Source: Thalassotalea sp. (GTDB lineage Bacteria > Pseudomonadota > Gammaproteobacteria > Enterobacterales > Alteromonadaceae). From it: a DNA stretch of 34,956 nt. Shown here piece after piece: positions 9,604 to 26,286 of this stretch; positions within the stretch are counted from its first letter, which is position 1; each line of letters starts with the position of its first letter. The notes beneath the pieces were generated by a model. That model made no database searches. It saw nothing but the letters and a program-made list of their open reading frames with translations, and was not told the DNA's origin. The translations under genes and the position numbers were made by a program. The stretch spans positions 1 to 34,956 of the forward strand of contig JAQWHO010000070.1 in the NCBI GenBank assembly GCA_029249355.1, given 5' to 3'.

Positions 9604-11223
9604 ATGAAACGACTCATTAGTGCTGCGCTACTCCTCGTTGCTCATCAAGCTATTTCACAAACAATTGTTTTAAAAAACATCAATGTGCTTGATGTCAAAA
9701 ATCTTACCGTAAATCAACAGCAAACTATTGTAATTAAAGATAAACATATCATAAGTGTCGGTAGGAAAGGCTCATTAACAATTCCAGAAAATGCGATTGT
9801 TTTTGATATGACAGGCAAATATGTATCTCCGGGGTTAATAGACAGTCATGTTCATCATGCTACCGATCCCGACGGCTTTGATAATGACAGGGATTCGCGT
9901 AAACGATTAAGAACATTAATACGTGGTGGTGTTACTTCTGTGCGTGATATGGGGGGAGATACTCGAGCCTTAAATTCACTAGCGCGCAGAGCAATGTTAG
10001 ATCAAATACAATCGCCTGATATTTACTATTCTGTGATTATCGGCGGCGCTGAATTTTTTGCAGATCCTCGAACAGTTTCTTCTGCTAAAGGCATGAAGTC
10101 TGGCAATACTCCTTGGATGAAGGCCGTTGATGATGAAACCGCTCTTGATCAGGTAATGCTTATGGCCAAAGGTACAGGTGCAACAGGTATAAAAATATAT
10201 GCGAAAGTGCCTGGTCACCTTATGGAAAAACTATCAAAGGCAGCTAAAAAACATCAATTGAAAGTGTGGTCACATGCTTATGTTGGACCTGCGAAACCAA
10301 GTGAAGCAATTGCAGGGGGTGTTGAAACTATTTCACATGCACCTGATTTAGCCGCAGAAATTATTGAAAACTATGAAAATTGGCGTAGAAAGAATATTGA
10401 GCCAAATGCAGAACAAGAAAAACGTTCTTATAATGAGGATGAATATCAAAGGCTTTTAGCTCTTATGAAGCAAAAAGAAACGATTTTGGATGCAACATTG
10501 ACTGTATTTGAAAAACGTAAAAATTCATCAAAAAATAGCGAAAAGCGTTATCAACATGCAAAAATGTTGACACGTTTATCGCATGAAAAAGGTATTAAAA
10601 TTTCGGCGGGAACTGATGCGTTTAGCGATGAAGAAGTTCAGCTATACCATGAATTAACATTATTAGTTGAAGATGCAGGACTAACGCCATTTGAATCTCT
10701 GCAAGCGGCGACGATTCATGGTGCTGAAGTCATTGGTATTGAAAATGAGTATGGCTCAATTGAGAAAAATAAAATTGCCAATCTTGTTGTCTATAACGAA
10801 AACCCTAGTGAGAGCTTATCAGCACTTACGTCAATTGCTCATGTAATAAAAAACGGTCAATTCATTTATCGTGGAGCAGACTCTAGGCTTCCTTTTATTC
10901 CAGCAAAAAAAGCAGCTGGTACATTATGGATGTCGGGGCAGCTCGGAAACCTTCCCGGTACAATGAAGCTGGCTGGTGAAACAATTGATGGGCAAATGCA
11001 TCAAACTATGAAGAATATTGGTTATGTTTTGCAAGAATACAATTTATCAATGGCAGATTTGACTAAATGCACTGTGATGTTAAGCGATATTAAGGATTGG
11101 TCGAAAGCGAGTGATATTTATAAGACGTACTTCACAGGCGCCTTACCAACAAGAAGTGCTTTTGCTGCAAGTGGTTTGGCATTAAATGCCAAAGTTGAAA
11201 TTGAGTGTTTTGCTGCTTTCTAG
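9604..11223 (+). CDS. Exported amidohydrolase (Met-dependent/imidazolonepropionase-like) fused to a C-terminal RidA domain
   Basis: The 539-residue product begins with a signal-peptide-like stretch ('MKRLISAALLLVAHQAISQ'). Residues about 20-420 form an amidohydrolase: metal ligands 'DSHVHH', a Lys in 'GIKIYAK' suited to carboxylation, His in 'WSHAYV' and 'ISHAPD', and the Asp of 'AGTDAF', followed by the usual C-terminal beta part 'IEKNKIANLVVYNENP'. Residues about 423-539 form a RidA (YjgF/UK114) domain, including 'MSGQLGNLPGTM' and 'PTRSAFAASGLALNAKVEIE', in which Arg517 and Glu532 match the carboxylate-binding Arg and the conserved Glu of RidA. The fusion suggests the RidA part acts on a product of the hydrolase. 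The substrate is unknown; peptide-like or cyclic imide compounds are typical of this amidohydrolase group. Confidence 0.88.
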   Translation: MKRLISAALLLVAHQAISQTIVLKNINVLDVKNLTVNQQQTIVIKDKHIISVGRKGSLTIPENAIVFDMTGKYVSPGLIDSHVHHATDPDGFDNDRDSRKRLRTLIRGGVTSVRDMGGDTRALNSLARRAMLDQIQSPDIYYSVIIGGAEFFADPRTVSSAKGMKSGNTPWMKAVDDETALDQVMLMAKGTGATGIKIYAKVPGHLMEKLSKAAKKHQLKVWSHAYVGPAKPSEAIAGGVETISHAPDLAAEIIENYENWRRKNIEPNAEQEKRSYNEDEYQRLLALMKQKETILDATLTVFEKRKNSSKNSEKRYQHAKMLTRLSHEKGIKISAGTDAFSDEEVQLYHELTLLVEDAGLTPFESLQAATIHGAEVIGIENEYGSIEKNKIANLVVYNENPSESLSALTSIAHVIKNGQFIYRGADSRLPFIPAKKAAGTLWMSGQLGNLPGTMKLAGETIDGQMHQTMKNIGYVLQEYNLSMADLTKCTVMLSDIKDWSKASDIYKTYFTGALPTRSAFAASGLALNAKVEIECFAAF

Positions 11224-11237
11224 TTCGCCGTAAAAAT

Positions 11238-11269
11238 AAAAACGCCAGAGAATAATCTCTGGCGTTTTT
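11238..11269. terminator. Bidirectional intrinsic terminator between the amidohydrolase and dsbA
   Basis: Arms AACGCCAGAGA (11241-11251) and TCTCTGGCGTT (11256-11266) pair perfectly around a 4-nt loop. A T-run follows on the plus strand, and an A-run precedes it that serves as the U-tract for the minus strand. It lies between two convergent genes. Confidence 0.9.
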
Positions 11270-11291
11270 GATTGTGCGATTAACGATTCAT

Positions 11292-12968: not shown

Positions 12969-13736
12969 TCACTCAACTAACTCTAATATGTCAAAAACAT
13001 CGGCAGTAATATAACCTAAATTCTTTTCACCATTTACAGGAGTGATAGGGGTAGAGCCTACAAAGTGTTCACGCTCTTTACTGCCATCATTATCACAATA
13101 GGCGAGCATAAATCCGAGTTTCTTACCTTTAAATAGTTTAACTGGCTTGCCTTTGAACTCTTTTTTATTTTCAATGGTTTGGTAAGTTAAGCTGTCATCA
13201 TAAACATCAATGGCCATCTCCCAAGTAACAACATGCGGTGCATCTTTATTTCTCTGCCATTTATTTTTGATATGGTCATTCAGTGTTAAAAAATCAGGTG
13301 AGCCATCTGAATTTTTATAACCAATATCAACAGATTGATTATCTAACGCAACATGATAAGCAAAAGCATTAAAGTTAAATTGATGATTACCGCCGGAAGC
13401 GTCTTCATCGATAAATACTTCAATACAATCATCATCCCAATAAAAATGCAGCGGATCAGCATGTTGGTCAAAAAGAATATCGTCGGTAATTTCAACTAAT
13501 AAGTAGAGCTTTTCTTCGTCCCAAATTATTTTAAAACGTCCAGAAAAATCTTCAGGGCTTAAAGCTTCACCTAAAATAAGTTCATTTAAAGGTTGCCATT
13601 GAGCTAATGCCCAAGCCTTATCTATAGATTTTCCATCGATAGTGGGTGCAACGTTTGTTTTTGGTGCTGTCATTGCTAAAACATTGGGTATGCTTAAAGC
13701 GTACAATAATGACGTGATGAAAACTAAGGCTTTCAT
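12969..13736 (-). CDS. Exported CBM9-like carbohydrate-binding protein
   Basis: The 255-residue protein has a signal peptide (about residues 1-21, ending '..VLA') and one CBM9-like sandwich: 'APTIDGKSIDKAWALAQW' opens the domain, followed by 'LYLLVEITDD', 'FYWDDDCIEVFIDEDASGG' and 'HQFNFNAFAYHVAL', the usual CBM9 order. It should be periplasmic or surface-exposed and bind sugar rather than cut it, since no catalytic domain is attached. It is the last gene of the symporter-GH94-gluconokinase operon and its ATG overlaps the gluconokinase stop by 4 bases. The characterised CBM9 of Thermotoga Xyn10A binds reducing ends of glucans. Whether this one prefers oxidised ends is a guess. Confidence 0.82.
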   Translation of the reverse strand: MKALVFITSLLYALSIPNVLAMTAPKTNVAPTIDGKSIDKAWALAQWQPLNELILGEALSPEDFSGRFKIIWDEEKLYLLVEITDDILFDQHADPLHFYWDDDCIEVFIDEDASGGNHQFNFNAFAYHVALDNQSVDIGYKNSDGSPDFLTLNDHIKNKWQRNKDAPHVVTWEMAIDVYDDSLTYQTIENKKEFKGKPVKLFKGKKLGFMLAYCDNDGSKEREHFVGSTPITPVNGEKNLGYITADVFDILELVE

Positions 13737-14257
13737 TTTCGATCTCTCTGTTTCGTTAGGAAAATAATAGATTGCTTTATTATACTTTCAATTGATTGAT
13801 TAATAGCGATTAATTCTATATTTTCGTGATTGTTTTTATTAGGCAACTCAAGTTCTTCAAATTGACTATCCAGTAATGTTTCAGGAAAGAAATGTCCTGT
13901 TCTATCGACTATGCGTCGGATAATTATCGCTTTTTCACCATAAAGAAAAATACCACTCAATGATCTATCTAAATCGTGAAACCGTTGTCTTTGTGATTTT
14001 TTCAAACCAGAATAAGCCAAGACAAAACGGGCATTATTATGATGTTCATCGGCAAGAAATAATAAAATACGAGTGATCCATGCTTGACGAATTTCATCGT
14101 TAATCGGCTGACCATCCGCCATCATTCTTTTAGCTTGTTCACTATGGAAGTCATCAGCATCAAGGTAAATATAGTTAAGTTGTTCGGCAAGCGATTCGGC
14201 TATGGTGGATTTCCCTGTACCACTAACACCCATCACTAAAATTAACTCTGCTGGCAT
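13733..14257 (-). CDS. gntK: Gluconokinase (GntK/IdnK family)
   Basis: The 174-residue protein has the P-loop 'GVSGTGKST' (residues 10-18) and the gluconokinase signature 'YLDADDFHSEQAKRMMADGQPINDEIRQAWI', plus 'YSGLKKSQRQ' and 'RTGHFFPETLLDSQFEELE'. It phosphorylates D-gluconate with ATP to 6-phosphogluconate in the cytoplasm, feeding the Entner-Doudoroff and pentose phosphate pathways. Its start overlaps the end of the GH94 gene by 16 bases and a 'gaagg' ribosome site lies inside that gene, so the two are translationally linked. This is the key context for reading the GH94 enzyme as one that releases gluconate. No gluconate permease is nearby, which fits gluconate being made inside the cell. 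Confidence 0.93.
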   Translation of the reverse strand: MPAELILVMGVSGTGKSTIAESLAEQLNYIYLDADDFHSEQAKRMMADGQPINDEIRQAWITRILLFLADEHHNNARFVLAYSGLKKSQRQRFHDLDRSLSGIFLYGEKAIIIRRIVDRTGHFFPETLLDSQFEELELPNKNNHENIELIAINQSIESIIKQSIIFLTKQRDRK

Positions 14258-16629
14258 ATTTGGCCTTCACTATTTCCTAGTGTTATATCTATATTGTAGA
14301 TTTTACCTTTAACGATATCGGTAATTATATTTGACGCTGATAATTTACCATCAACAATAACTTTAGTTGCTTCTGTGTTTTCATCTCTAGAATAATTCAC
14401 TTTAAACGTTGCGCCTAAAAAGTTACGTTCTACAGTTAATGACGGCCATTGCGATGGAAATTTTGGTGAAATAATAAGTTTTCCTGCCTCACCTTTTAAG
14501 CCACAAAGTTCTTCAATGATACAGCGATAATACCAAGCAACTGTTCCGGTATTGAATAATTGACTTGATTTACCAGCAACCTCAGGCATTTGAAAATATG
14601 CGCCACGGTAGTAGTTAGGCACAAAAGTTGGTAATTGCTGACGTGTTGAAATATCGTCTTTATTGGGAAGCATTTTAAGTAAAACATCAAACGCTTTATC
14701 GTACTGATTATTTTGATAAAGACTATAAGCGTAAAATGCGGCAGCATGATTATAAACCGAGCCATTTTCAGAAACACCGGGGAATTTTTGTGTCAGTCGT
14801 CCGACATTTTCATGCATTTTTGTGTAACTAGGCGCAAGCATCATGATGCCAAAAGGGGTGGCAAGATTTTCGTCAATTGCCGAAAGCACTATTTGTTGTT
14901 GTTTTGTATCTGCGGCGCCACTTAACATCGCCCATGTTTGAGGGTTTAGATATATTTTACCTTCTTCATCACTTTCTACACCGAAAGCGACACCATTATC
15001 ATTTATACCTCTTGCATACCATTTTCCATCCCAAAAATGTTCGTTCATCGCGTTATTGAGGGTATCAATGGCGGCTAAGTATTCAGGCAATTTTTCTTGA
15101 TTGATTTGGTGTTGTTGGCAAATATTACACCATACTTTTAACGAATAGGCGGTAGCAACGGTTAACCAAGCAGAAACACCTTTACCTTTATAGCCCACCA
15201 TATTCATAGGGTCACACCAATCACCTTGCTCAATAAAACTTAAGCCCTGTTCATTTCGAGCATTGAGTAAGTAGTCAAGGGTAAGGTTGATGTGCTCAAC
15301 CAGCGGTAAACATTGCTCAGAATCTGAAAAAGGAATGTCAGACGTTAAAATATCGTTGTCATTTGTTTCACTTAAATAACATTGCAAACAAAGTGTTAAC
15401 CAAATTCCATGATCGCTATGTGGCACCAAATTGATGTATTTAAGTTCAGCCTGTTCATGCAATAAAATTCCGTCGGGCATCGCACCAGAGATTAATTGTT
15501 GTGAAAGGGCAGTTATTAACGCTTTTTTCGTTTTTTCTGGTGCAATAAAAGCCATACCCATGGCATCTTGTAAGTAATTTCGGGTTTGTGGATCTGTCGA
15601 TAAACGATTGACATCACCATGATAAAAAACTTGCCTTGGTAGCCAATGATTAACAAATTCATTAAAGGCTTTATCTGGTGAAGTCACGCTAATGCTTCCT
15701 TCTCCTTGCGATAAATACTCTTGGTAATCAAGCCGAGCCTTATTAAAGCGATCTGGCTGAGCAAAGTACTTTTCTTTAATGTCTGCTATTTCATGATCAT
15801 TATTTGCTGGGCCAAAGAGAAATTGATGTTTTATTTGCTCTTGGCAGTTTAATTGATGATTAAATTGCAAAGCGGCTAACGGTGTTTGATACAGTGCTTT
15901 TTGCTGTGGCAGTTGACTAAATTGCAACGCGTCAGGATTATGCAAACCACCTTCACCTTCAAAAACAGGCTGATTTGCGCACCAACTGGTAGGTTGATGT
16001 TTTGTTAATAAAAACGTTTTGTCTTTTAAATGTTTATTTTTAAAGTAATCTTCTACTTTTTGATAAGGGGTAATACTACTAGCGACAATGCCATTTAATG
16101 CTCTATCAAAATCAGCAGATTGATTCATCCATGACATGTAGCCGATAGTAAAGTATGGGTATATCGCAATATTCCTTGTTTTTTCACTATGACTAATAAT
16201 GCTAAGTTCCCACATTTCTACCACATCATTTTTGGGTAGTGACAAACTTAATTGAATTTCTAATTCTAAATGATTAATGCGCCAAATTAGGTTGTCTTTG
16301 CCGACTGAAAAATTAAACGATCCGAGCTTAGACCTAACTGGTTCATAAGGGATTGAGAATAATTCACCTGAATCTAAACATTTAATATAGAAGAACCGGC
16401 CACTATGATGAGCAAAATAACTTTGCTCAGGTTGCATAAAGGTTTTAGCTTCCATATTAAGTGCATGTGAATACTTACTTGGTTCTGGTTGCATAAATTG
16501 GGCAACAGAATAACCGCGACAATTCATGTGGATCATCATGTTTTTATTCCATAAAAAGCCACTGGCTTGCGACATTTTTATCGGGTCGGAGATATCAACA
16601 CGCTGGTTGATAAAATCATGTTGAAACAT
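14242..16629 (-). CDS. GH94 phosphorylase, probably cellobionic acid phosphorylase
   Basis: The 795-residue protein has the GH94 layout: N-terminal beta-sandwich (about 1-300), alpha/alpha-barrel (about 320-720) and a C-terminal jelly-roll. The likely catalytic acid is Asp473 in 'EQGDWCDPMN', where cellobiose and chitobiose phosphorylases have DWND. A phosphate-loop-like 'PGVSENGSVYNHAAAF' follows 'NVGRLTQKF'. In Saccharophagus degradans cellobionic acid phosphorylase, as I recall, Arg609, Lys613 and Gln190 bind the substrate carboxylate; here Arg611, Lys615 and Gln190 fall at nearly the same numbers and spacing. With the overlapping gluconokinase this points to cellobionate + phosphate giving glucose 1-phosphate + gluconate. 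It has no signal peptide and is cytoplasmic. A plain cellobiose or other beta-glucoside phosphorylase is the alternative. The residue match is from memory and not aligned. Confidence 0.88.
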   Translation of the reverse strand: MFQHDFINQRVDISDPIKMSQASGFLWNKNMMIHMNCRGYSVAQFMQPEPSKYSHALNMEAKTFMQPEQSYFAHHSGRFFYIKCLDSGELFSIPYEPVRSKLGSFNFSVGKDNLIWRINHLELEIQLSLSLPKNDVVEMWELSIISHSEKTRNIAIYPYFTIGYMSWMNQSADFDRALNGIVASSITPYQKVEDYFKNKHLKDKTFLLTKHQPTSWCANQPVFEGEGGLHNPDALQFSQLPQQKALYQTPLAALQFNHQLNCQEQIKHQFLFGPANNDHEIADIKEKYFAQPDRFNKARLDYQEYLSQGEGSISVTSPDKAFNEFVNHWLPRQVFYHGDVNRLSTDPQTRNYLQDAMGMAFIAPEKTKKALITALSQQLISGAMPDGILLHEQAELKYINLVPHSDHGIWLTLCLQCYLSETNDNDILTSDIPFSDSEQCLPLVEHINLTLDYLLNARNEQGLSFIEQGDWCDPMNMVGYKGKGVSAWLTVATAYSLKVWCNICQQHQINQEKLPEYLAAIDTLNNAMNEHFWDGKWYARGINDNGVAFGVESDEEGKIYLNPQTWAMLSGAADTKQQQIVLSAIDENLATPFGIMMLAPSYTKMHENVGRLTQKFPGVSENGSVYNHAAAFYAYSLYQNNQYDKAFDVLLKMLPNKDDISTRQQLPTFVPNYYRGAYFQMPEVAGKSSQLFNTGTVAWYYRCIIEELCGLKGEAGKLIISPKFPSQWPSLTVERNFLGATFKVNYSRDENTEATKVIVDGKLSASNIITDIVKGKIYNIDITLGNSEGQICQQS

Positions 16630-16638
16630 TGTTAAACC

Positions 16639-17991
16639 TTACTCGCTTTCATTGGATAATAATTTACGTTTAGCTAAATCGTCTTGAATATCTATTACAG
16701 CCTTATCAGATAGTGAATAAAATTTAACGACAAATACCGAAAGGGCAGCAAAGCCGGCAGGGATTAAAGTCATTAACAGAACAATACCTGTTTGAGAATC
16801 ATGGTTTTGCACTTGGTTGGCAATATAGCCCATTGATGCTAATAACCAGCCGATCATCGCTCCTGCAATTGCTCCACCTAATTTTTGCGCAAAGGCGGCG
16901 GCAGAAAAAACCATCGCAGTTGCACGACGACCATGTTTCCATTCAGAAAAATCAGCTGTATCTGCATACATAGAAAATACCAGCGGAGACTTTGGCCCTA
17001 ACGTAAAGCCAATCGCTATTTGTAGTATGTACATCAGCATTATTTGATCTTTAGGCACAAAATAAAAAAGTACCGATAAAATAGTTACCGCTGTCATCAG
17101 TATCATTAAAAGACGGCGCTTATCGATAAATTTAGTCATGATGGGTGTTGACGCAGCGCCCACAGCTAAAGCAATCATATAAGCAAAAGAAAAACTGCCG
17201 ATAAGGTCTTCTCGTTCAACGAAGTACTTAAAATAAAAAGTCCCTGTACTACCTCTTAAGGAGATTGTCATCATAATGATCAGGGCAAGACTAAACAAAA
17301 TGACCCACGGTCTATTTTGGGTTAAGTCTTTGATGTCTTGTAAAATAGGGGTCTTTTGTTCTTTTGGGGGGGCAATACGCTCCTTGGTACTTAAGAACGT
17401 AATTGCAAATAATATTGCGGCAATACCACCGTATAAGCCCATGGTGAGTTGCCAGCCAAAGGCTTCATTCCCTTGACCAAAATACTCAACTAATTTTGGT
17501 GTTAAGTACGCAACTAAACTACCGCCTGAAAATGCACCGATAAAACGAAAGCTCGTTAATGTCGTTCTATCTTGGCTGTTACCAGTAACTACTCCTAGTA
17601 ATGCTCCGTATGGGACATTAATAAAGGTGTAAGCGAGCATCATAAAAATATAAGTAGCATATGCCCACATTAGTTTGCCGCTGTCATCGAGATCAGGAAC
17701 CGTAAAAGTTAATACACCGGCTGCAGCAATAGGAATAATACCCCAGAGTAGGTAAGGACGGAATTTACCAAATTTCGTTTGTGTACGATCAGCCAAGGCG
17801 CCCATTAATGGGTCAGAAAATGCGTCTATTAAACGCGTGACTAACATCATGGTACCAACCGCAGCGGGGTGTAAACCAAATACATCGGTGTAAAAGATAA
17901 AGAGAAAAACATCAAAAACGCGCCAGTAAAAGTTTGATGCGACATCACCGCATGCATAACCGACTTTTTCTTTAAGTCTTAAACTCGCCAT
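16639..17991 (-). CDS. GPH-family (MelB-like) sugar:cation symporter, first gene of the GH94 operon
   Basis: The 450-residue protein has about 12 hydrophobic segments and GPH-family motifs: 'EKVGYACGDVASNFYW' at the start, 'DAFSDPLMGALADRT' with 'KFGKFRPYLLW' in the loop after helix 2, and 'KHGRRATAMVFSA' late in the protein. These are the cation/sugar-site regions of MelB-like symporters. It sits in the inner membrane and should import a glycoside, most likely the GH94 substrate since GH94 begins 9 bases downstream. Length is standard for the family. A LacI-type operator lies 62 bp upstream of the start, downstream of a candidate promoter, so repression by the LacI protein at 26395 is likely. 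Confidence 0.9.
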   Translation of the reverse strand: MASLRLKEKVGYACGDVASNFYWRVFDVFLFIFYTDVFGLHPAAVGTMMLVTRLIDAFSDPLMGALADRTQTKFGKFRPYLLWGIIPIAAAGVLTFTVPDLDDSGKLMWAYATYIFMMLAYTFINVPYGALLGVVTGNSQDRTTLTSFRFIGAFSGGSLVAYLTPKLVEYFGQGNEAFGWQLTMGLYGGIAAILFAITFLSTKERIAPPKEQKTPILQDIKDLTQNRPWVILFSLALIIMMTISLRGSTGTFYFKYFVEREDLIGSFSFAYMIALAVGAASTPIMTKFIDKRRLLMILMTAVTILSVLFYFVPKDQIMLMYILQIAIGFTLGPKSPLVFSMYADTADFSEWKHGRRATAMVFSAAAFAQKLGGAIAGAMIGWLLASMGYIANQVQNHDSQTGIVLLMTLIPAGFAALSVFVVKFYSLSDKAVIDIQDDLAKRKLLSNESE

Positions 17992-18052
17992 AAATAGAGA
18001 CCTTATTCATTTTTAATTTAGTTATTAGTCTTATTATTAAACTATATCAAAA

Positions 18053-18066
18053 TGAAAGCGCTTACA
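18053..18066. promoter_or_regulatory. LacI-type operator upstream of the symporter-GH94 operon
   Basis: TGAAAGCGCTTACA is one mismatch from the perfect 14-bp palindrome TGTAAGCGCTTACA found twice more in this intergenic region. The central AAGCGCTT with a CG step is typical of LacI-family operators. It lies about 20 bp downstream of the predicted transcription start for the minus-strand operon. Confidence 0.8.
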
Positions 18067-18089
18067 AATATTTATTGATAGAAGAACTA

Positions 18090-18118
18090 ATTTTATCTTT
18101 GATTGTTCATATTCTGAA
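18090..18118 (-). promoter_or_regulatory. Candidate sigma-70 promoter of the symporter-GH94-gntK-CBM9 operon
   Basis: On the minus strand TTCAGA (18113-18118) and TAAAAT (18090-18095) are 17 bp apart, giving a start near 18083. The operator at 18053-18066 would then lie in the early transcribed region, a good place for a roadblock repressor. Confidence 0.45.
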
Positions 18119-18200
18119 AATAATAGATTTAAGGATGTTTAATTTATTTAATGATAACAATGCTTTGTCTTTATTGTTGAAATAATTAGTAAAATAATGA

Positions 18201-18229
18201 TTGACGATAATATGAACATAATCTAACTT
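18201..18229 (+). promoter_or_regulatory. Candidate promoter P1 of the TonB-dependent receptor gene
   Basis: TTGACG (18201-18206) and TAACTT (18224-18229) are separated by 17 bp. The perfect operator at 18232 begins just after the -10 element and so would cover the start site. Confidence 0.4.
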
Positions 18230-18231
18230 AA

Positions 18232-18245
18232 TGTAAGCGCTTACA
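18232..18245. promoter_or_regulatory. LacI-type operator, perfect palindrome
   Basis: TGTAAGCGCTTACA is a perfect 14-bp palindrome. It directly follows the P1 -10 element of the receptor gene. The same sequence recurs 66 bp further on. Confidence 0.88.
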
Positions 18246-18296
18246 GAGTGTCTCGGATTTTTTTTCCCTTACACACGGTAAAAATTTTCAATAACT

Positions 18297-18326
18297 TTGT
18301 AAGCGCTTACAAAAATATATTATAAA
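18297..18326 (+). promoter_or_regulatory. Candidate promoter P2 of the TonB-dependent receptor gene
   Basis: TTGTAA (18297-18302) and TATAAA (18321-18326) are 18 bp apart, giving a short leader of about 35 nt before the ATG. The -35 element is embedded in the operator at 18298, so repressor binding would block it. Confidence 0.5.
18298..18311. promoter_or_regulatory. LacI-type operator, perfect palindrome, receptor-proximal
   Basis: TGTAAGCGCTTACA occurs again, and here the symmetry extends outward to TTTGTAAGCGCTTACAAA (18 bp). It ends 57 bp before the receptor ATG and overlaps the P2 -35 element. Confidence 0.9.
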
Positions 18327-18368
18327 AATAGCGATAATTGTACGTAAAAAGTATCGAGGGAGAACATA

Positions 18369-21300
18369 ATGAAAACATTTAAAAAATCTCAAATAGCTAC
18401 CAGTTTATCGGTGGTTTTAGGCATGGGAGCATTGAGTTTAGTTCATGCTCCAACTGCATTTGCAGCAGAAAATGCAGAGCAAGAAATTGAAGTTATTGAA
18501 GTTACGGGTATCCGTGGTTCTTCAAAAGCAAGCATAAACGGTAAGCGCTTTGCTGATTCTCAAGTAGATGGTATTGCTGCTGAAGACATTGGTAAATTAC
18601 CTGATGTAACTATTACAGATTCACTACAACGTATTTCAGGTGTTCAAATTGAACGTGTTGCAGGTGAGGGTGGACCGGTACAAATTCGTGGTTTACCTCA
18701 AGTAGACACCACAATGAATGGTGAAACATTCTTATCCGCTACAACAATTGATACTGCTGCTGCCGATTTAGGTGATTTACCAGCACAGTTATTTGGTGGT
18801 GTTGATGTATATAAATCGGCAACCGCTGGAAACGTAGCACAAGGTATCGCCGGTTCAATTGATCTTAAAACACGCCGCCCATTTGATATGGATGAAGGTT
18901 GGACATTCGCTGGTGGTGTTGAAGCTACTCGTGGTTCAATTACCGAAGAAACAGATCCTACATTACATGGTTTAGCATCATATAATAACGGCAAAATTGG
19001 TGTATTAATTTCTGCTGTCACCCAAGAAGCTACGTTAGCAACCGATTATAATGGTCATAACGATACGTCTGAAAATGGCGGAATCGGTTGGACTCAAAAT
19101 AACCATGCTTGGGGCGAGCCAAGTGAAGGTGGTGACGTTTATACAATCGTACCTCATGGTTTTACGGCTTTTAACAAAACAGAAGAACGCGAACGTGATG
19201 CTCTACAACTTTCTGTTCAAGCTGATTTAGACGATGGTTTTGTTTTAACGGCTGATTATTTCTATACACAGCAAGACCGTTTTAACAATCGTTCTGGTTT
19301 TAACCATAACAACCGCTGGCAAACATATAACGAATACGCGTATGCAACAAATTATACAGGCGATTCGTTTACAGATGCTAATGGTAATCCTTGGAAAGCT
19401 GCTGACGCATACAAAATGAATCCTTACCGTATGCAAACATTCACACAAGTAAACGTGAATGAGGAAAAATCACAAAACTTTAACCTTCAGTTAGATTTTG
19501 ATAATGGTGGAGCGTTAACAGGTCAAGTTCGTGCAACTCATGCTCGCGCGACAGCTAAAATGCGTCATGCATATGGTGAAGGTGATTTACTTAGCATTGA
19601 TGAAGGTTCACGTGTTTTAGGCCCAGGTGGTTTTAACCCATCACAATACTGTACAAATGGCGAAGAAATCATTGGCTCTGAAGGTGGTTGTAATGCTCAG
19701 TATTCTACAGGTATTGAAGACCCTAATTTCCAATTAACATATGATGCTCGTGGTTCACATCCAGCATTTGGTGGTTTCGATCAGCAAGTACTAGGCGGAA
19801 AAGGCATGATGTCAGTTGCTGACTACATGGCTGATCTTGATTCTTACCACATTGGTGCGTTCTCTTCTGAAGGTAATACAGACGATGAAGGTAAATTATC
19901 TACATTTAGCACCAAGTGGAACTATGCATTAGATGATCATGACTTCATTACGAGCGTTGATTTTGGTGTGCGTTTTAGCAAACGTGAAGTTGACCATGAC
20001 CAATTCACTTATACTTCTACTTTTGGTAATGGTTGTGATATCGCACAGTGGAAAGCGGTTGATCAACAATACGGCCCAGATTGTGAAGGGCAAGCAGGTA
20101 CCGGTGAATATGTAACTGATGATGAAGGTAACGAAGTTTGGACTCCTTATACATTGTTAGGACCTACAGCACTTGATCAACATACTACCGTTTCTTGGCA
20201 GACTGATTTTGGTGGTGTAACGGGTATTCCAGGTATTTGGGTGATTGACCCAGAAAACTTCCGTGACCCTAAACAATGGCATAAAGATACTTTCGGCAAT
20301 GTTGCACGTACTGAAAATGGTGGTGCTACCTATGATGTTGGCTTAGATGAAATCTCGTATTTCACACAAGTTAACTTCGATTATGAAGCATTAAGCGGTA
20401 ACATTGGTCTTAAAATCATTCAAACTGATTTATTTGTTAAGCAAAACTTAGTGGGTCCTAACTTACCTCACTCAGGTTTAGGTCCAGATATCGGTGATGT
20501 GGTTACAGAACGCAGCTATACAGATGAATTATTGTCAATGAACTTAGCATATCAAGCTTCAGATGAAGTTGTGTTACGTGCAGCATACTCTGAAAACATG
20601 CAGGCATTAAATTTAAGTCAATGGGGTGCGGGTAAAACTGTAGGCTCAGTATTTAATAATGATTGTAACTGTATGCGTGTTCAAAACGGTTCATTAAATG
20701 GTAACCCTGAGCTTGACCCATGGCGTTCAGAGAACTACTCACTTTCTGCTGAGTGGTATGCTGGTGATGCATCAATGTTTTTCCTTTCAACATACGGCAT
20801 TGACATTGAAAGCTTTACTGAAGGTTCAACTATCATGATTGATGAGCCTGATTCAGATGGTGTTCGTCGTGGTCCACATCCTTTCTCTGCTAACATTCAA
20901 GGCGTTGGTGGTGATGTGTCAGGTTACGAAATTGGTGGTAAAGTTGCATTCAGTGACTTCCTAGGAGAAGACAGCATATTAGCAAATGTAGGTATGGATA
21001 TTAACTACACATATGCTGACAGCTCTCAAGAAAGTAAAGGTATTGATGGCGATGACTTACCGTTTGGCGGCATGTCGAAAGATACTTACAACGCGGTTGT
21101 ATGGTATGAAGATGATATGTTCTCAGCTCGTTTAGCATGGAACTCTCGTAGCCCACGCCTAATGTCTGGCGGTAATGCTAACACAGGTAATCAAGCACTT
21201 TATCAAGATGACTATTCGCAACTTGATTTCAATGCTACATATGACTTCAATGAAACAGTTAGCTTCTATGTTAACGGTTCAAACATTACTGAAGAAATTC

Positions 21301-21389
21301 AACAGACTTATATAGAGTTTTCTAAGCAAAAAGCTTTCCAAAACGTATATGAAGCACGTTGGACAGTAGGTGCTCGAGTATCTTTCTAA
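18369..21389 (+). CDS. TonB-dependent outer-membrane receptor (TIGR01782-like, carbohydrate type)
   Basis: The 1006-residue protein has a signal peptide (cleavage near 'AFA', residue 32-33), a TonB-box-like 'EVIEVTGIRGS' (41-51), a plug domain of roughly 55-185 ('DSQVDGIAAEDIGKLPDVTITDSLQRISGVQIER', 'VQIRGLPQ') and then a long beta-barrel ending in 'ARWTVGARVSF' with the terminal Phe of outer-membrane proteins. The plug pattern is that of the large TIGR01782-type receptors of Alteromonadales and Caulobacter, often sugar importers. Extracellular loops contain paired cysteines ('CTNGEEIIGSEGGC', 'CDIAQWKAVDQQYGPDC', 'CNC'). Two perfect LacI-type operators lie upstream. Its ligand is inferred from context to be a cello- or oxidised cello-oligosaccharide. 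No SusD-type partner is present. Confidence 0.93.
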   Translation: MKTFKKSQIATSLSVVLGMGALSLVHAPTAFAAENAEQEIEVIEVTGIRGSSKASINGKRFADSQVDGIAAEDIGKLPDVTITDSLQRISGVQIERVAGEGGPVQIRGLPQVDTTMNGETFLSATTIDTAAADLGDLPAQLFGGVDVYKSATAGNVAQGIAGSIDLKTRRPFDMDEGWTFAGGVEATRGSITEETDPTLHGLASYNNGKIGVLISAVTQEATLATDYNGHNDTSENGGIGWTQNNHAWGEPSEGGDVYTIVPHGFTAFNKTEERERDALQLSVQADLDDGFVLTADYFYTQQDRFNNRSGFNHNNRWQTYNEYAYATNYTGDSFTDANGNPWKAADAYKMNPYRMQTFTQVNVNEEKSQNFNLQLDFDNGGALTGQVRATHARATAKMRHAYGEGDLLSIDEGSRVLGPGGFNPSQYCTNGEEIIGSEGGCNAQYSTGIEDPNFQLTYDARGSHPAFGGFDQQVLGGKGMMSVADYMADLDSYHIGAFSSEGNTDDEGKLSTFSTKWNYALDDHDFITSVDFGVRFSKREVDHDQFTYTSTFGNGCDIAQWKAVDQQYGPDCEGQAGTGEYVTDDEGNEVWTPYTLLGPTALDQHTTVSWQTDFGGVTGIPGIWVIDPENFRDPKQWHKDTFGNVARTENGGATYDVGLDEISYFTQVNFDYEALSGNIGLKIIQTDLFVKQNLVGPNLPHSGLGPDIGDVVTERSYTDELLSMNLAYQASDEVVLRAAYSENMQALNLSQWGAGKTVGSVFNNDCNCMRVQNGSLNGNPELDPWRSENYSLSAEWYAGDASMFFLSTYGIDIESFTEGSTIMIDEPDSDGVRRGPHPFSANIQGVGGDVSGYEIGGKVAFSDFLGEDSILANVGMDINYTYADSSQESKGIDGDDLPFGGMSKDTYNAVVWYEDDMFSARLAWNSRSPRLMSGGNANTGNQALYQDDYSQLDFNATYDFNETVSFYVNGSNITEEIQQTYIEFSKQKAFQNVYEARWTVGARVSF

Positions 21390-21418
21390 CTCTCCCTAGA
21401 TAGTTACCTCGTTACTTA

Positions 21419-21448
21419 GAACGCCGCATTAAATGCGGCGTTTTTTTA
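21419..21448 (+). terminator. Intrinsic terminator of the TonB-dependent receptor gene
   Basis: Arms ACGCCGCAT (21421-21429) and ATGCGGCGT (21433-21441) pair perfectly around a 3-nt loop and run into a stretch of T residues, 30 bp past the receptor stop. Confidence 0.93.
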
Positions 21449-21450
21449 TT

Positions 21451-21666
21451 TCAAACCATTAGGGCATGTTGATCTTTGTAATAGTTTGTATGGTATTTAT
21501 ATAAATTATTGCGAATGTAGTGAGGTTGTAACACATCAATGTGAATTAATGCTTTGCCTCCTTTATTATTCATGACATTTTCACTATCTGCCCAAAATTG
21601 TTTATTGTGGTAAACATCAAAGAAAAGAAAGTGTTCTCGATTTCCGGTACCATTATTATTTCCTTT
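21451..21666 (-). pseudogene. Unrecognised short frame, probably a frameshifted or truncated gene remnant
   Basis: The minus strand is open for 71 codons from just after a TAG (complement of 21667-21669) to a TGA at 21451-21453. The residues look protein-like ('HFLFFDVYHNKQFWADSE', 'ALIHIDVLQPHYIRN') but the frame has no start codon near its beginning; its first Met is about residue 32. An ATG with a strong ribosome site ('agaaaggaaataata') occurs at 21653 in another frame and reads only 27 codons, as if one base had been lost or gained soon after the start. That would make the original product about 66 residues. I do not recognise the family. It is missing from the ORF track, presumably for lack of a start codon. 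Confidence 0.4.
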
Positions 21667-21810
21667 CTAATGTCTAATAAAAAACGAGGAATACAAACTA
21701 CCTAAGACTTTATTGAACATGGTTATTGTCAAAAGCTTAAAGAGTTCTGTACTGAGAATTGAAAAGCATTTAAGAGAATATGTATTGTAAATAGGGTGTG
21801 TTTTGAATAT

Positions 21811-21847
21811 AAAAAAAGCACTGATAAAGAATAATAGTGCTTTTTAT
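21811..21847 (-). terminator. Intrinsic terminator of the gluP-like gene
   Basis: Arms AAAAAGCACT (21813-21822) and AGTGCTTTTT (21836-21845) pair perfectly around a 13-nt loop. The run of A on the left gives the U-tract for minus-strand transcripts. It lies about 20 bp past the gluP-like stop. Confidence 0.75.
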
Positions 21848-21864
21848 TTTGTCATTGAGGACGG

Positions 21865-23115
21865 TTAATTCTGTTGAGGCTTATAACCTTTCAAGCCGTA
21901 GTACATGATAAATACGTAGCATACTATTGGTAAAACAAATGAGATTTGTAAACCAATTGTATCGGCTAAAAGTCCTTGTAAATAAGGAATAATTGCCCCA
22001 CCAACAATCGCTAAACATAAAATACCCGAACCTTGGCTGGTATGTTCTTTCAGGCCATTAATTGCTAATGTGAATATTGTTGGAAACATAATTGAATTGA
22101 ATAAGCCAATAGCTAGCACAGCCCACATTGCGATAGCACCAGAAGTAAAAATGGTGATTAACAATAAAACAATGGCAGCCGCGGCATTAAAAGCCAACAC
22201 TTTTCCTCCTGCTATTTTTTGCATTACTGCAGCACCAATGAATCGACCAACCATAGCGCCACCCCAGTAATAAGCGATGTATGTTGCTGCAACTGATTCT
22301 TCCATCGCGGCAATAGTAGGTTCAGCGAAAAAGTTAACAAGAAAGCTACCAATGGCCACTTCAGCGCCAACATAAACAAAAATCCCAATAGCGCCTAATA
22401 CTAAGTGACTGTATTGCCATGCACTGCCAGACACCTCAACCGTTTGAGTTGTTTGTTGATGCTCAATATTAGGTAATTTTAAGTAGGCAAAAATAGCCGC
22501 TAAAATAAGTAGCATTCCCGCTAGAAACAAATAAGGCATTTGCACTGATTCAGCTTGTTGAGCTTTTGAAACCGCTTCTGCCGCTTCGTTTAATATTAAG
22601 AGCGCACCAAAAAAAGGGGCAACTGTTGTTCCTAATGAATTGAACGCTTGTGTTAATGTTAATCGCGATGAAGCAGTCGCTGGGTTTCCTAGAATACTGA
22701 CATAAGGATTAGCCGAAACTTGTAGAACCGTGATACCACTTGCCAAAATGAATAATGCAAATAAAAATACAGGATAACTTTGCATTGATGCTGCAGGATA
22801 AAAAGTCATACAACCAAAAGCCGCAATTACTAACCCGAGCACAATACCTCTTTGATAGCCTAATCTTTTCACTAATGCGCCAGCGGGTAATGACACGATA
22901 AAATAGGCGCCAAAAAAGCAAAATTGTACGAGCATCGCTTGGCTATAAGATAAATCAAATATACCTTTTAAATGAGGAATTAAAATATCATTCAAACAGG
23001 TGATAAACCCCCACATGAAAAATAAAGAGGTGAGTGAAGTTAAGGCAAAAGTATAATTACCGTCTTGACTCTGATTGTTGTTTTCTTGCGCTACGCCAGC
23101 GATACTTGCCGCCAT
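21865..23115 (-). CDS. gluP: FucP/GluP-type MFS sugar transporter (FHS family)
   Basis: The 416-residue inner-membrane protein has about 12 hydrophobic segments and FHS-family signatures: '[30 protein letters not shown]' in helix 1 and its loop, '[17 protein letters not shown]', and '[37 protein letters not shown]'. It should import a monosaccharide such as glucose or galactose with protons or sodium. 'taggagaattt' before the ATG is a strong ribosome site. It diverges from the GH1 gene, with a LacI-type operator between them, so it is probably part of the same regulon and collects glucose released outside the cytoplasm. Substrate beyond hexose is not determinable. Confidence 0.88.
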
Positions 23116-23220
23116 AAATTCTCCTAATATAGTTAACTTTTTGTTTGTTTAATTATTATTCGTTAATAACTTTCTATGAGATTAGAACATAGACTATCTC
23201 ATTATTAATTAGCTGTTGAT

Positions 23221-23249
23221 CTTTTATTTGATTCAATCTAATATTACAA
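23221..23249 (-). promoter_or_regulatory. Candidate promoter of the gluP-like gene
   Basis: On the minus strand TTGTAA (23244-23249) and TAAAAG (23221-23226) are 17 bp apart. The -35 element lies next to the operator at 23252-23265. The match is modest (4 of 6 in each element). Confidence 0.35.
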
Positions 23250-23251
23250 AA

Positions 23252-23265
23252 TGTAAGCGCTTTCA
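23252..23265. promoter_or_regulatory. LacI-type operator between gluP-like and GH1 genes
   Basis: TGTAAGCGCTTTCA differs by one base from the perfect operator seen upstream of the receptor and mirrors the variant at 18053. It can serve both divergent genes. Confidence 0.8.
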
Positions 23266-23367
23266 TTTATACCACGTTAAAATAAAAGTGCAACAATTTG
23301 CATACGTATGTTTGCACCGATTTTGTAAAAGCTTTGCTTAACTGTTGAAAAGGAAACTTGAGATAAT

Positions 23368-24699
23368 ATGACTTTCTCACTACCAAAAAACTCTCCGATG
23401 CGTTCATCGTCATTTTTATACGGAGTGGCTACCGCATCATTTCAAATTGAAGGGGGAGTAGAAAATCGCTTACCTTGTATTTGGGATACTTTTTGTGCAA
23501 CAGCAGGAAAAATTGAAGACGGTTCAAATGGCGATGTAGCTTGTGATCATTTTAACCGCTGGCAAGATGATGTTGAGCTGATCAGTTCATTTGGTGTCGA
23601 CGCATATCGTTTATCTATTTCATGGCCTCGGGTGATCAAACAAGACGGTAGTGTTAATCAACAAGGCATGAGTTTTTATATCAATTTACTCGATGAATTG
23701 AATGCAAAAGGCATAAAACCTTTCGTGACTTTATATCATTGGGATTTACCACAATACCTTGAAGATAATGGTGGATGGCTAAATCGAGAAACGGCCTATA
23801 AATTTCAAGAATACACCAAACATGTTGTCAACGCTTTTGGTGACCGCGTACACGCATATGCGACACTAAATGAACCGTTCTGTAGTGCATATTTAGGCTA
23901 CGAAGCGGGTATTCATGCGCCGGGTTTAGTAGGGAAAGAATACGGGAAAAAAGCGGCACATCATTTACTTTTAGCACATGGCTTAGCCATGCAAGTGTTG
24001 AATGAATTAAGCCCAAATACCTTAAACGGTATTGTCCTAAACTTTACTCCAGGTTACGCGCTTTCTGATTCTATTGAAGACAAAGAAGCAACAAGAAAAG
24101 CCAACGAATACTTTAATTACTGGTACTCAAAGCCTGTATTTGATGGTGAATATCCTGAGCTAATAAACGAGTTACCAGCAGAGCATCGTCCAGAAATTCT
24201 TGATAATGACATGGAAGTCATATCCCAGCCGATGGACTTTTTAGGTATCAATTTTTATACCCGAGCAAGATATAAAGCGCACCCAACTGAAATGTTTGAA
24301 GAAATCATCGTTGAAGGGGTAGAGCGCACCGATATTGGTTGGGAGATCTATCCACAAGCTTTTACGGATTTATTAGTCGATTTAGATACTCGCTACGACT
24401 TACCGCCTGTTTATATTACTGAGAATGGCGCATCAATTGATGATGAAATTGAAAACGGAGTAGTGAACGATGTCCGTAGAATTGACTACTACAACAAACA
24501 CTTAAATGCGGTTAACGATGCGATAAGTAAAGGCGTTAATGTTCAAGGGTATTTTGCTTGGAGCTTAATGGACAATTTTGAGTGGGCCGAAGGCTACTTA
24601 AAACGTTTCGGCATCGTTTATGTTGATTATCAAACACAAATACGTACAGTTAAGGCAAGTGGCTTAGCGTACAAAAAGTTATTGAGTGAGCGCGATTAA
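23368..24699 (+). CDS. bglA: GH1 beta-glucosidase (cytoplasmic)
   Basis: The 443-residue protein is a full-length GH1 enzyme: 'FLYGVATASFQIEGG' near the start, the acid/base Glu169 in 'YATLNEPF', the nucleophile Glu352 in 'VYITENGAS', and 'YFAWSLMDNFEWAEGYLKRFG' at the glycone site. It has no signal peptide, so it hydrolyses beta-glucosides such as cellobiose after import, yielding glucose. The ribosome site 'aaaggaaacttgag' supports the ATG at 23368. The GPH transporter follows 54 bp downstream and the LacI regulator after that, an arrangement typical of a beta-glucoside uptake unit. GH1 is broad in specificity, so glucoside versus galactoside preference is not certain. Confidence 0.93.
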   Translation: MTFSLPKNSPMRSSSFLYGVATASFQIEGGVENRLPCIWDTFCATAGKIEDGSNGDVACDHFNRWQDDVELISSFGVDAYRLSISWPRVIKQDGSVNQQGMSFYINLLDELNAKGIKPFVTLYHWDLPQYLEDNGGWLNRETAYKFQEYTKHVVNAFGDRVHAYATLNEPFCSAYLGYEAGIHAPGLVGKEYGKKAAHHLLLAHGLAMQVLNELSPNTLNGIVLNFTPGYALSDSIEDKEATRKANEYFNYWYSKPVFDGEYPELINELPAEHRPEILDNDMEVISQPMDFLGINFYTRARYKAHPTEMFEEIIVEGVERTDIGWEIYPQAFTDLLVDLDTRYDLPPVYITENGASIDDEIENGVVNDVRRIDYYNKHLNAVNDAISKGVNVQGYFAWSLMDNFEWAEGYLKRFGIVYVDYQTQIRTVKASGLAYKKLLSERD

Positions 24700-24753
24700 T
24701 TGCCAACGAGTAAATATCTCCATTAAATAATTATAAGAAGAAGGTATAAAATA

Positions 24754-26286
24754 ATGCATAAGCTTTCGTTGTTTGAAAAAGTCGGTTACGCAACGGGTGA
24801 CGCTGCCGCAAACTTAGTATGGCGAGGTGCATTAGCTTACTTAGCGGTGTTTTATACTGACACTTTTGGCTTAACGGCTGCTGCCGCCGCCATGTTATTT
24901 TTGGTGGTGCGACTTTCTGATGGTGTTACTGACATTATCATGGGGATGATTGCTGATAGAACCGACACTAAGTGGGGCAAGTTTCGCCCATGGATTCTCT
25001 GGTCAGCGCCATTTTTAGGTTTGTTTATGGTGCTATGTTTTACCACGCCAGATCTGTCTGAAAATGGTAAATTAATTTATGCCTACGTCACATATATTGG
25101 TTTAACACTCGCTTATACCATCAATAATGTTCCTTATTCTGCTTTGATGGGCGTTATGACACCAAGTGATACTGAACGTACTAGCTTGTCAGGATTTAGA
25201 TTTGCTGGCGCTTTTGCTGGTGGTTTACTGGTTATGGGCTTTTTACCTGATTTGGTTGCCTACTTTGGCGCCGGCGACGACGCGGTAGGTTATCAATACA
25301 CTATGTACCTATTTGCTGGCTTGTTAATTGGCTTAATGGTGATCACATTCGCTTCAACTAAAGAACGTGTTACACCAAAAATTGATGAAACATCTTGTTT
25401 AAAAACAGAATTATTCGATTTATCTAAAAACCTCCCGTTTATTATTTTGCCTTTATTGGCGATGACCTTATTCTTTTATTATCGAGAACTTTACAGCGGA
25501 ATATTTTTCTTTGCGGTAATGACTGGGATGTATGTAGTGATCAAACGTTTGATCAATCAATCAACAGAAAATATGACGGGCACACAACGAGATATGGTCG
25601 ATCTATTAACCAATAAACCTTGGTTAATATTATTAGGCATGGGCTTTTTAACCATGATGTTTAACGGCATTAAATATGGCGTTATTGCCTATTATTTTAA
25701 ATATCATGTGGCGGATGAATTAATGGCCGGTAAATATTTTATCGCTTTGTTATTGGTGTCTATTCTTGGTGCATTATGTACAAGTTATTTAGCCAATAAA
25801 TTTGGCAAAATTAAATTATTTATAATCGCGTTAATTATTAGTGGCTTATTAACGGGAGCACTTTATTGGGTACCAAAAGGCGATATTGTTGTTCTTTTTT
25901 CACTCGGCTGTGCCGCTGAATTTTTTGCGGCGATGATGCCCACATTATTTTTTACCATGCTGGGCGATTCTGCTGATTATTCAGAGTGGAAAAATGGTCG
26001 TCGTGCTACGGGCTTAGTGTATTCAGCAGGCACTTTTGTGCAAAAAACAGGAGGAGGTTTTGCCGGTGCATTAGTATTGGTTGTGTTAGCAGGCTACGGC
26101 TATAACGGTATGGACCCTGCAACTATCGAAGCTTCATTGCCTGGTATGCAGTTATTGATGAGTTGGATACCTGCTGCATTTGCTTTTGCGGGCGCAGCAT
26201 TAATGTTGTTTTATCCATTAACGACTCAGCTAAACAAGCAAGTGAGTGAAGATCTTATTCAAAGAAGAAAAGCTTCTGCTCATTAA
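24754..26286 (+). CDS. GPH-family sugar:cation symporter with an extra central hydrophobic insertion
   Basis: The 510-residue protein is a paralogue of the symporter at 16639: 'EKVGYATGDAAANLVWRG', 'LSDGVTDIIMGMIADRTDTKWGKFRPWILW' and 'KNGRRATGLVYSAG' match it. It is about 60 residues longer because of an insert at about 221-280, between the two six-helix halves, containing the hydrophobic stretches 'LPFIILPLLAMTLFFYY' and 'GIFFFAVMTGMYVVI'. The insert begins with 'DLSKNLPFIIL' and the core resumes with 'DLLTNKPWLIL', which looks like a partial internal duplication. It should import the GH1 substrate through the inner membrane. It stands in the bgl operon before the lacI gene. Confidence 0.9.
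   Translation: MHKLSLFEKVGYATGDAAANLVWRGALAYLAVFYTDTFGLTAAAAAMLFLVVRLSDGVTDIIMGMIADRTDTKWGKFRPWILWSAPFLGLFMVLCFTTPDLSENGKLIYAYVTYIGLTLAYTINNVPYSALMGVMTPSDTERTSLSGFRFAGAFAGGLLVMGFLPDLVAYFGAGDDAVGYQYTMYLFAGLLIGLMVITFASTKERVTPKIDETSCLKTELFDLSKNLPFIILPLLAMTLFFYYRELYSGIFFFAVMTGMYVVIKRLINQSTENMTGTQRDMVDLLTNKPWLILLGMGFLTMMFNGIKYGVIAYYFKYHVADELMAGKYFIALLLVSILGALCTSYLANKFGKIKLFIIALIISGLLTGALYWVPKGDIVVLFSLGCAAEFFAAMMPTLFFTMLGDSADYSEWKNGRRATGLVYSAGTFVQKTGGGFAGALVLVVLAGYGYNGMDPATIEASLPGMQLLMSWIPAAFAFAGAALMLFYPLTTQLNKQVSEDLIQRRKASAH

Follow-up and report, generated by a model that had tools for sequence, protein, structure and literature searches.

RidA proteins are known as guards against the enamines and imines that PLP enzymes and amine oxidases form inside the cell. 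What would a RidA domain do when it is joined to a hydrolase behind a signal peptide? This question is raised by a gene in a 34,956-nucleotide stretch of Thalassotalea sp. DNA (hereafter the window; contig JAQWHO010000070.1 of assembly GCA_029249355.1). The original prediction, made from the sequence of the window, had described its product as an exported amidohydrolase-RidA fusion and had deduced that hydrolysis yields an imine or enamine handled outside the cytoplasm.

A leader-bearing amidohydrolase-RidA fusion

The fusion was borne out by our analysis. A single uninterrupted ORF contains matches to both Pfam families far above the cut-offs (Amidohydro_1 with E 4.9e-29 over residues 73-419; Ribonuc_L-PSP, i.e. 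RidA, with E 3.2e-21 over residues 430-538), and the same architecture is found in 13 further sequences (Table 1). Since these come from 13 other genomes, an assembly or frameshift artefact is ruled out. The linker between the two domains is nearly nil, so that they abut. The protein begins with MKRLISAALLLVAHQAIS, followed by QT at the predicted cleavage site. In a simple heuristic, this leader shows the basic, hydrophobic and cleavage regions of Sec export, with a mean Kyte-Doolittle value of 2.85 across the 10 residues of the hydrophobic stretch, in agreement with the predicted signal peptide. The same pattern was scored in 13 of the 14 full-length fusions, and in the L037 protein, which the heuristic left unscored, a leader was seen by eye. 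We infer that the leader is a Sec signal peptide and that the protein is probably exported.

Downstream of the gene, an inverted repeat is likely to serve as a terminator common to the fusion gene and a converging dsbA-like gene. Further along, the window contains a carbohydrate-related stretch (12969-26286) with a CBM9-like protein, a GH94 enzyme and a TonB-dependent receptor identified by Pfam; its kinase, transporter and beta-glucosidase-like genes were assigned by visual inspection alone.

Table 1 Features of the fusion gene and its surroundings (positions are those of the window)
Feature	Position	Strand	Basis or remark
Amidohydrolase-RidA fusion gene	9604..11223	+	539 aa; ORF, Pfam, 13 further full-length fusions
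Predicted Sec-type signal peptide, residues 1-18	9604..9657	+	Predicted cleavage between AIS and QT; heuristic scoring of all fusions
Amidohydrolase domain, residues 20-419	9661..10860	+	Pfam PF01979; Foldseek best matches COG1228-type
Metal ligands H82, H84, K197	9847, 9853, 10192	+	Invariant in 14 fusions
Metal ligands H224, H245, D338	10273, 10336, 10615	+	Invariant in 14 fusions
RidA domain, residues 430-538	10891..11217	+	Pfam PF01042; AF2 pLDDT 95; Foldseek to 5hp7
RidA Arg517	11152-11154	+	Invariant in 14 aligned full-length fusions
RidA Glu532	11197-11199	+	Invariant in 14 aligned full-length fusions
Inverted repeat (cgccagaga...tctctggcg), A and T runs on flanks	11241..11271	.	Read directly in the sequence

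The amidohydrolase domain

The whole protein was modelled with AF2 (pLDDT 84, pTM 0.86), and the top Foldseek matches of the model were 4c60, 9kov, 2p9b, 3mtw, 2qs8 and 3feq. The best solved matches are thus ochratoxinase, COG1228 prolidases and Arg/Lys carboxypeptidases, and the amidohydrolase domain has the fold of prolidases and ochratoxinase. The subtype-I ligand set (HxH, a carboxylatable Lys, two further His and an Asp) is complete and invariant in all 14 full-length fusions, including the window copy. It fits the binuclear scheme of ochratoxinase, which consists of HxH, Asp, a carboxylated Lys and two His (PMC11342369). The score with the Xaa-Pro dipeptidase model NF051886 was 97 bits, below the curated cut-off of 500.

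The nearest solved enzymes thus cleave dipeptides or N-acyl amino acids. Of the substrates put forward in the original prediction, N-acyl amino acids agree with these families, imidazolonepropionase was a weaker match, and no support was found for cyclic imides.

The RidA domain

RidA proteins are typically homotrimers with active sites at the subunit interfaces. The AF2 model of the RidA domain alone (pLDDT 94.9) had RidA 5hp7 as its best Foldseek match, with a TM score of 0.93 and 37% identity. The original prediction had been made dependent on a trimer-forming RidA fold, and its fold part survived. The positions it gave for Arg517 and Glu532 were exact, and both residues, as well as a Ser, are invariant in the aligned full-length fusions. 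The equivalent of Tyr17 of TdcF is Phe431 in the fusion. Imine hydrolysis by RidA proteins requires the Arg; replacement of Tyr17 or Glu120 by Ala had little effect (PMC4433059). With the TIGR00004 model (Rid family detoxifying hydrolase) the domain scored 82.9 bits, below the curated cut-off of 106.25; it is a divergent relative and was therefore not filed under this family.

Distribution and selection

The full-length fusions (n = 14 including the window copy) are 50-63% identical to the window copy. They were found in 13 of the 249 genomes of the family, the genome of the window included, and, in a scan of named genomes, in Microbulbifer variabilis; a Thalassotalea algicola locus from the same scan matches one of the 13 (G075) in gene order. 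No full-length fusion was found outside the family in samples of the order, class and phylum. Among 94 genomes of the class, a RidA match in a frame longer than 300 aa occurred only in the window ORF, besides a frame in G531 that carries two RidA matches. At the limit used, no plasmid record spanned the complete fusion.

The distribution of the gene is patchy: at the limit used, the fusion is missing from two further genomes of the genus. In one of these (G035), the genes flanking the fusion in the window, a helicase and the dsbA-like gene, enclose other genes and no fusion, showing that the site is variable. As the flanks are the same and their contents differ, the conserved neighbours in the window were ruled out as a clue to function. 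Horizontal transfer of the fusion gene is likely.

In four close pairs, dN/dS was 0.05-0.09 for the amidohydrolase domain and 0.01-0.10 for the RidA domain, ratios that are rough because for several of the pairs dS approached or exceeded saturation. The values indicate purifying selection on both domains. Of the two, RidA was the better conserved in 83 of 91 pairs, which together with its low dN/dS argues that it is not a passive tail. That the RidA part is a degenerate tail is ruled out by this selection and by the invariance of its Arg.

An M19-family partner in some fusion loci

Directly downstream of the fusion lies an M19-family gene in five of the 14 loci: L037, L038 (the L028 locus), L042, L043 and L027 (identified by Pfam in L038, L042 and L027, and by similarity in L037 and L043). 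The encoded proteins are leader-bearing, with twin-arginine-like leaders in most. In the same five loci and in L041, the gene before the fusion is a divergent one of LysR type (Pfam in L038). With the L038 query, M19 proteins of at least 61% identity were obtained from four of the 249 family genomes, always directly 3' of the fusion, and in Microbulbifer an M19 gene again follows it. The window copy has no M19 neighbour. A partner encoded elsewhere in its genome is improbable, as no close M19 homologue was found in this genome, which is 84% complete (best match 29% identical).

An unfused version of the system exists in one genome (L052), where genes for a RidA and an M19 protein, both with leaders, and for a related amidohydrolase adjoin. 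Nine amidohydrolase loci were examined in a single order from another class of the phylum; an M19 gene adjoins four of them, and none of the nine had RidA nearby. RidA is therefore not required for the amidohydrolase-M19 module. On these few loci, the amidohydrolase-M19 pair seems to be the older association, with RidA added in the fusion lineage.

The M19 partners (e.g. L038:11441-12550 and its orthologues) match Pfam M19 strongly and retain the two later His and the Asp. They have no N-terminal His-x-Asp, and the position of the bridging Glu is occupied by Gln, as in the solved structure 2i5g; the roles of these ligands are those of renal dipeptidase. Lacking this part of the binuclear site of M19 membrane dipeptidases, the partners are not ordinary dipeptidases or dehydropeptidases, and the idea that the partner is a canonical dehydropeptidase is weakened accordingly. 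They are possibly a distinct enzyme group.

The neighbours of the other fusions differ. In L039 (5191-10188), the fusion gene is immediately preceded by a carbon-nitrogen hydrolase, an SDR-like gene and another amidohydrolase, and in L048 it adjoins a GH20 hexosaminidase and a sugar transporter. L046 contains a region (17434-19408) in which short peptides of the SRPARGAWIET type are repeated on both strands, resembling a CRISPR array translated as protein.

Leader-bearing stand-alone RidAs and a domain swap

The original prediction stated that RidA normally acts in the cytoplasm. We collected ten leader-bearing stand-alone RidAs from the same order (L036, L052, L086-L088, L090, L091 and L122-L124), and as these recur across the order, an exported RidA is less odd than it implied. 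The description of a two-domain protein with predicted export is supported. Like the RidA part of the fusion, these proteins combine a leader with a RidA domain, and a similar Arg-Ser-Ala...Leu-Ala region is present in the seven aligned. Unlike it, they are unfused, and among those collected only L052 has amidohydrolase and M19 neighbours. Their neighbours vary and none is consistent (for example, a DUF885 protein in L086). In a tree, the fusion RidAs form their own group, apart from cytoplasmic and from exported stand-alone RidAs, and the latter two also separate from each other; supports in this tree are rough, since one row (L120), extracted badly, sits on a very long branch and the bootstrap was unsettled.

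The protein L035:9262-11334 has an amidohydrolase of the same family (51% identity), followed by a Polysacc_deac_1 domain where RidA would be. The tree places it among the fusions, but one in which all fusions stand together was not rejected (AU p 0.18). A single origin of the fusion with loss of RidA in L035 is therefore no more than a possible reading. Unfused relatives of the amidohydrolase domain without RidA exist as well. In L075 (8260-9544; G205), an amidohydrolase relative is split across two overlapping frames, by a frameshift or as a pseudogene.

Proposed function and alternative explanations

Both active sites are intact, conserved and under selection, which makes coupled chemistry outside the cytoplasm plausible. 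We propose from sequence that the fusion is a Sec-exported, periplasmic, bifunctional enzyme catalyzing two coupled steps, a reading that we consider about evenly balanced between right and wrong. The binuclear metal centre would hydrolyze a small peptide or an N-acyl amino acid at its amide bond, setting free a C-terminal amino-acid-like compound. This product, or a compound formed from it, would be a carboxylate-bearing 2-enamine or 2-imine that is bound via Arg517 and hydrolyzed by the RidA domain to a 2-keto acid and ammonia. An imine or enamine as the hydrolysis product, as the original prediction had it, would be in keeping with the RidA Arg. In favour of the two-step reading are the invariant metal ligands and RidA Arg, the low dN/dS of both domains, the separate neighbouring genes of L052, the M19 genes beside fusions and the kind of bond cut by the nearest solved enzymes. 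Against it weigh the lack of an M19 partner for the window copy, the altered metal site of the M19 partners, the amidohydrolase-M19 pairs without RidA and the deacetylase domain of L035.

The classical RidA substrate is 2-aminoacrylate, and free dehydroamino acids are such enamines. The linking substrate could therefore be a peptide or N-acyl compound with a 2,3-dehydroamino acid at its end, such as dehydroalanine, dehydrobutyrine or dehydrophenylalanine, a speculative chemical guess that we consider unlikely as it stands. Equally doubtful is the wider scheme of an extracytoplasmic pathway for dehydroamino-acid peptides, in which the fused hydrolase and RidA would free the enamine and dispose of it locally as keto acid and ammonia, with the divergent M19 protein helping in some species.

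The two-step enzyme has to be weighed against other roles of the RidA domain. The protein could be an exported COG1228 peptidase or aminoacylase in which RidA is a non-catalytic module for oligomerisation, ligand binding or stability. RidA proteins are typically trimers (PMC4433059), the amidohydrolase has relatives without RidA, and L035 carries another domain in its place, all of which would suit such a module; a scaffold alone, however, would need no Arg, and the catalytic Arg, together with the Glu and Ser, is invariant in a domain that is subject to strong purifying selection and better conserved than the amidohydrolase, so that we regard this reading as somewhat unlikely. Quite improbable, in our view, is that the two activities are unlinked and RidA clears periplasmic imines or reactive species produced by other enzymes or oxidants, with the fusion ensuring co-export and co-expression. 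The recurrence of exported stand-alone RidAs with no consistent neighbour is in line with it, but the fusion is conserved, and the separate RidA of L052 again stands beside the same amidohydrolase family.

A role in amino-sugar or chitin-derived metabolism, with an N-acetylated sugar acid or related compound as substrate, is suggested by the polysaccharide deacetylase domain of L035, the GH20 hexosaminidase and sugar transporter of L048, and the use of oxidised chitin in Pseudoalteromonas, which needs a D-aminoacylase-type enzyme and a RidA protein (PMC9537276). Each of these links is a single case, however, the neighbours of other fusions differ, and the Pseudoalteromonas enzymes are cytoplasmic and separate proteins; we consider this role very unlikely.

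To summarize, the fusion is real, conserved and under selection, and it is a new architecture of known families. A literature search on RidA-amidohydrolase fusions or periplasmic RidA gave nothing relevant among the papers covered, and no functional description was found in them. The dehydroamino-acid pathway, if true, would be the first case, as far as known, in which RidA is linked to a hydrolase and not to PLP or amine-oxidase chemistry. The conserved exported fusion, its unfused counterpart and the co-occurring M19-like partner point to a different source of enamines or imines outside the cytoplasm, and they form a small, testable set of genes for locating it.

Comparison with known systems

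For the N-terminal domain, comparisons of structure and of sequence both gave COG1228 enzymes as the best matches. The prolidases Sgx9260b/c (3MKV, 3FEQ/3N2C), the Arg/Lys carboxypeptidase Cc2672 (3MTW), ochratoxinase (4C5Y) and ADH3 have the fold and the binuclear subtype-I ligands in common with it, at identities of about 18-24% in structural alignments, a level at which substrate specificity is not transferable. In contrast to the fusion, the solved chains are no longer than an amidohydrolase and have no RidA domain. With Arabidopsis RidA (5HP7) and E. coli TdcF the C-terminal domain shares the fold and the catalytic Arg and Glu; unlike them, it is joined to an amidohydrolase, has a leader and contains Phe at the Tyr17 equivalent. 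The ong cluster of Pseudoalteromonas likewise unites an amide hydrolase, the D-aminoacylase-type deacetylase OngB, and the RidA protein OngD in one pathway (PMC9537276), but there the two are separate cytoplasmic proteins, whereas in the fusion they form a single, probably exported one.
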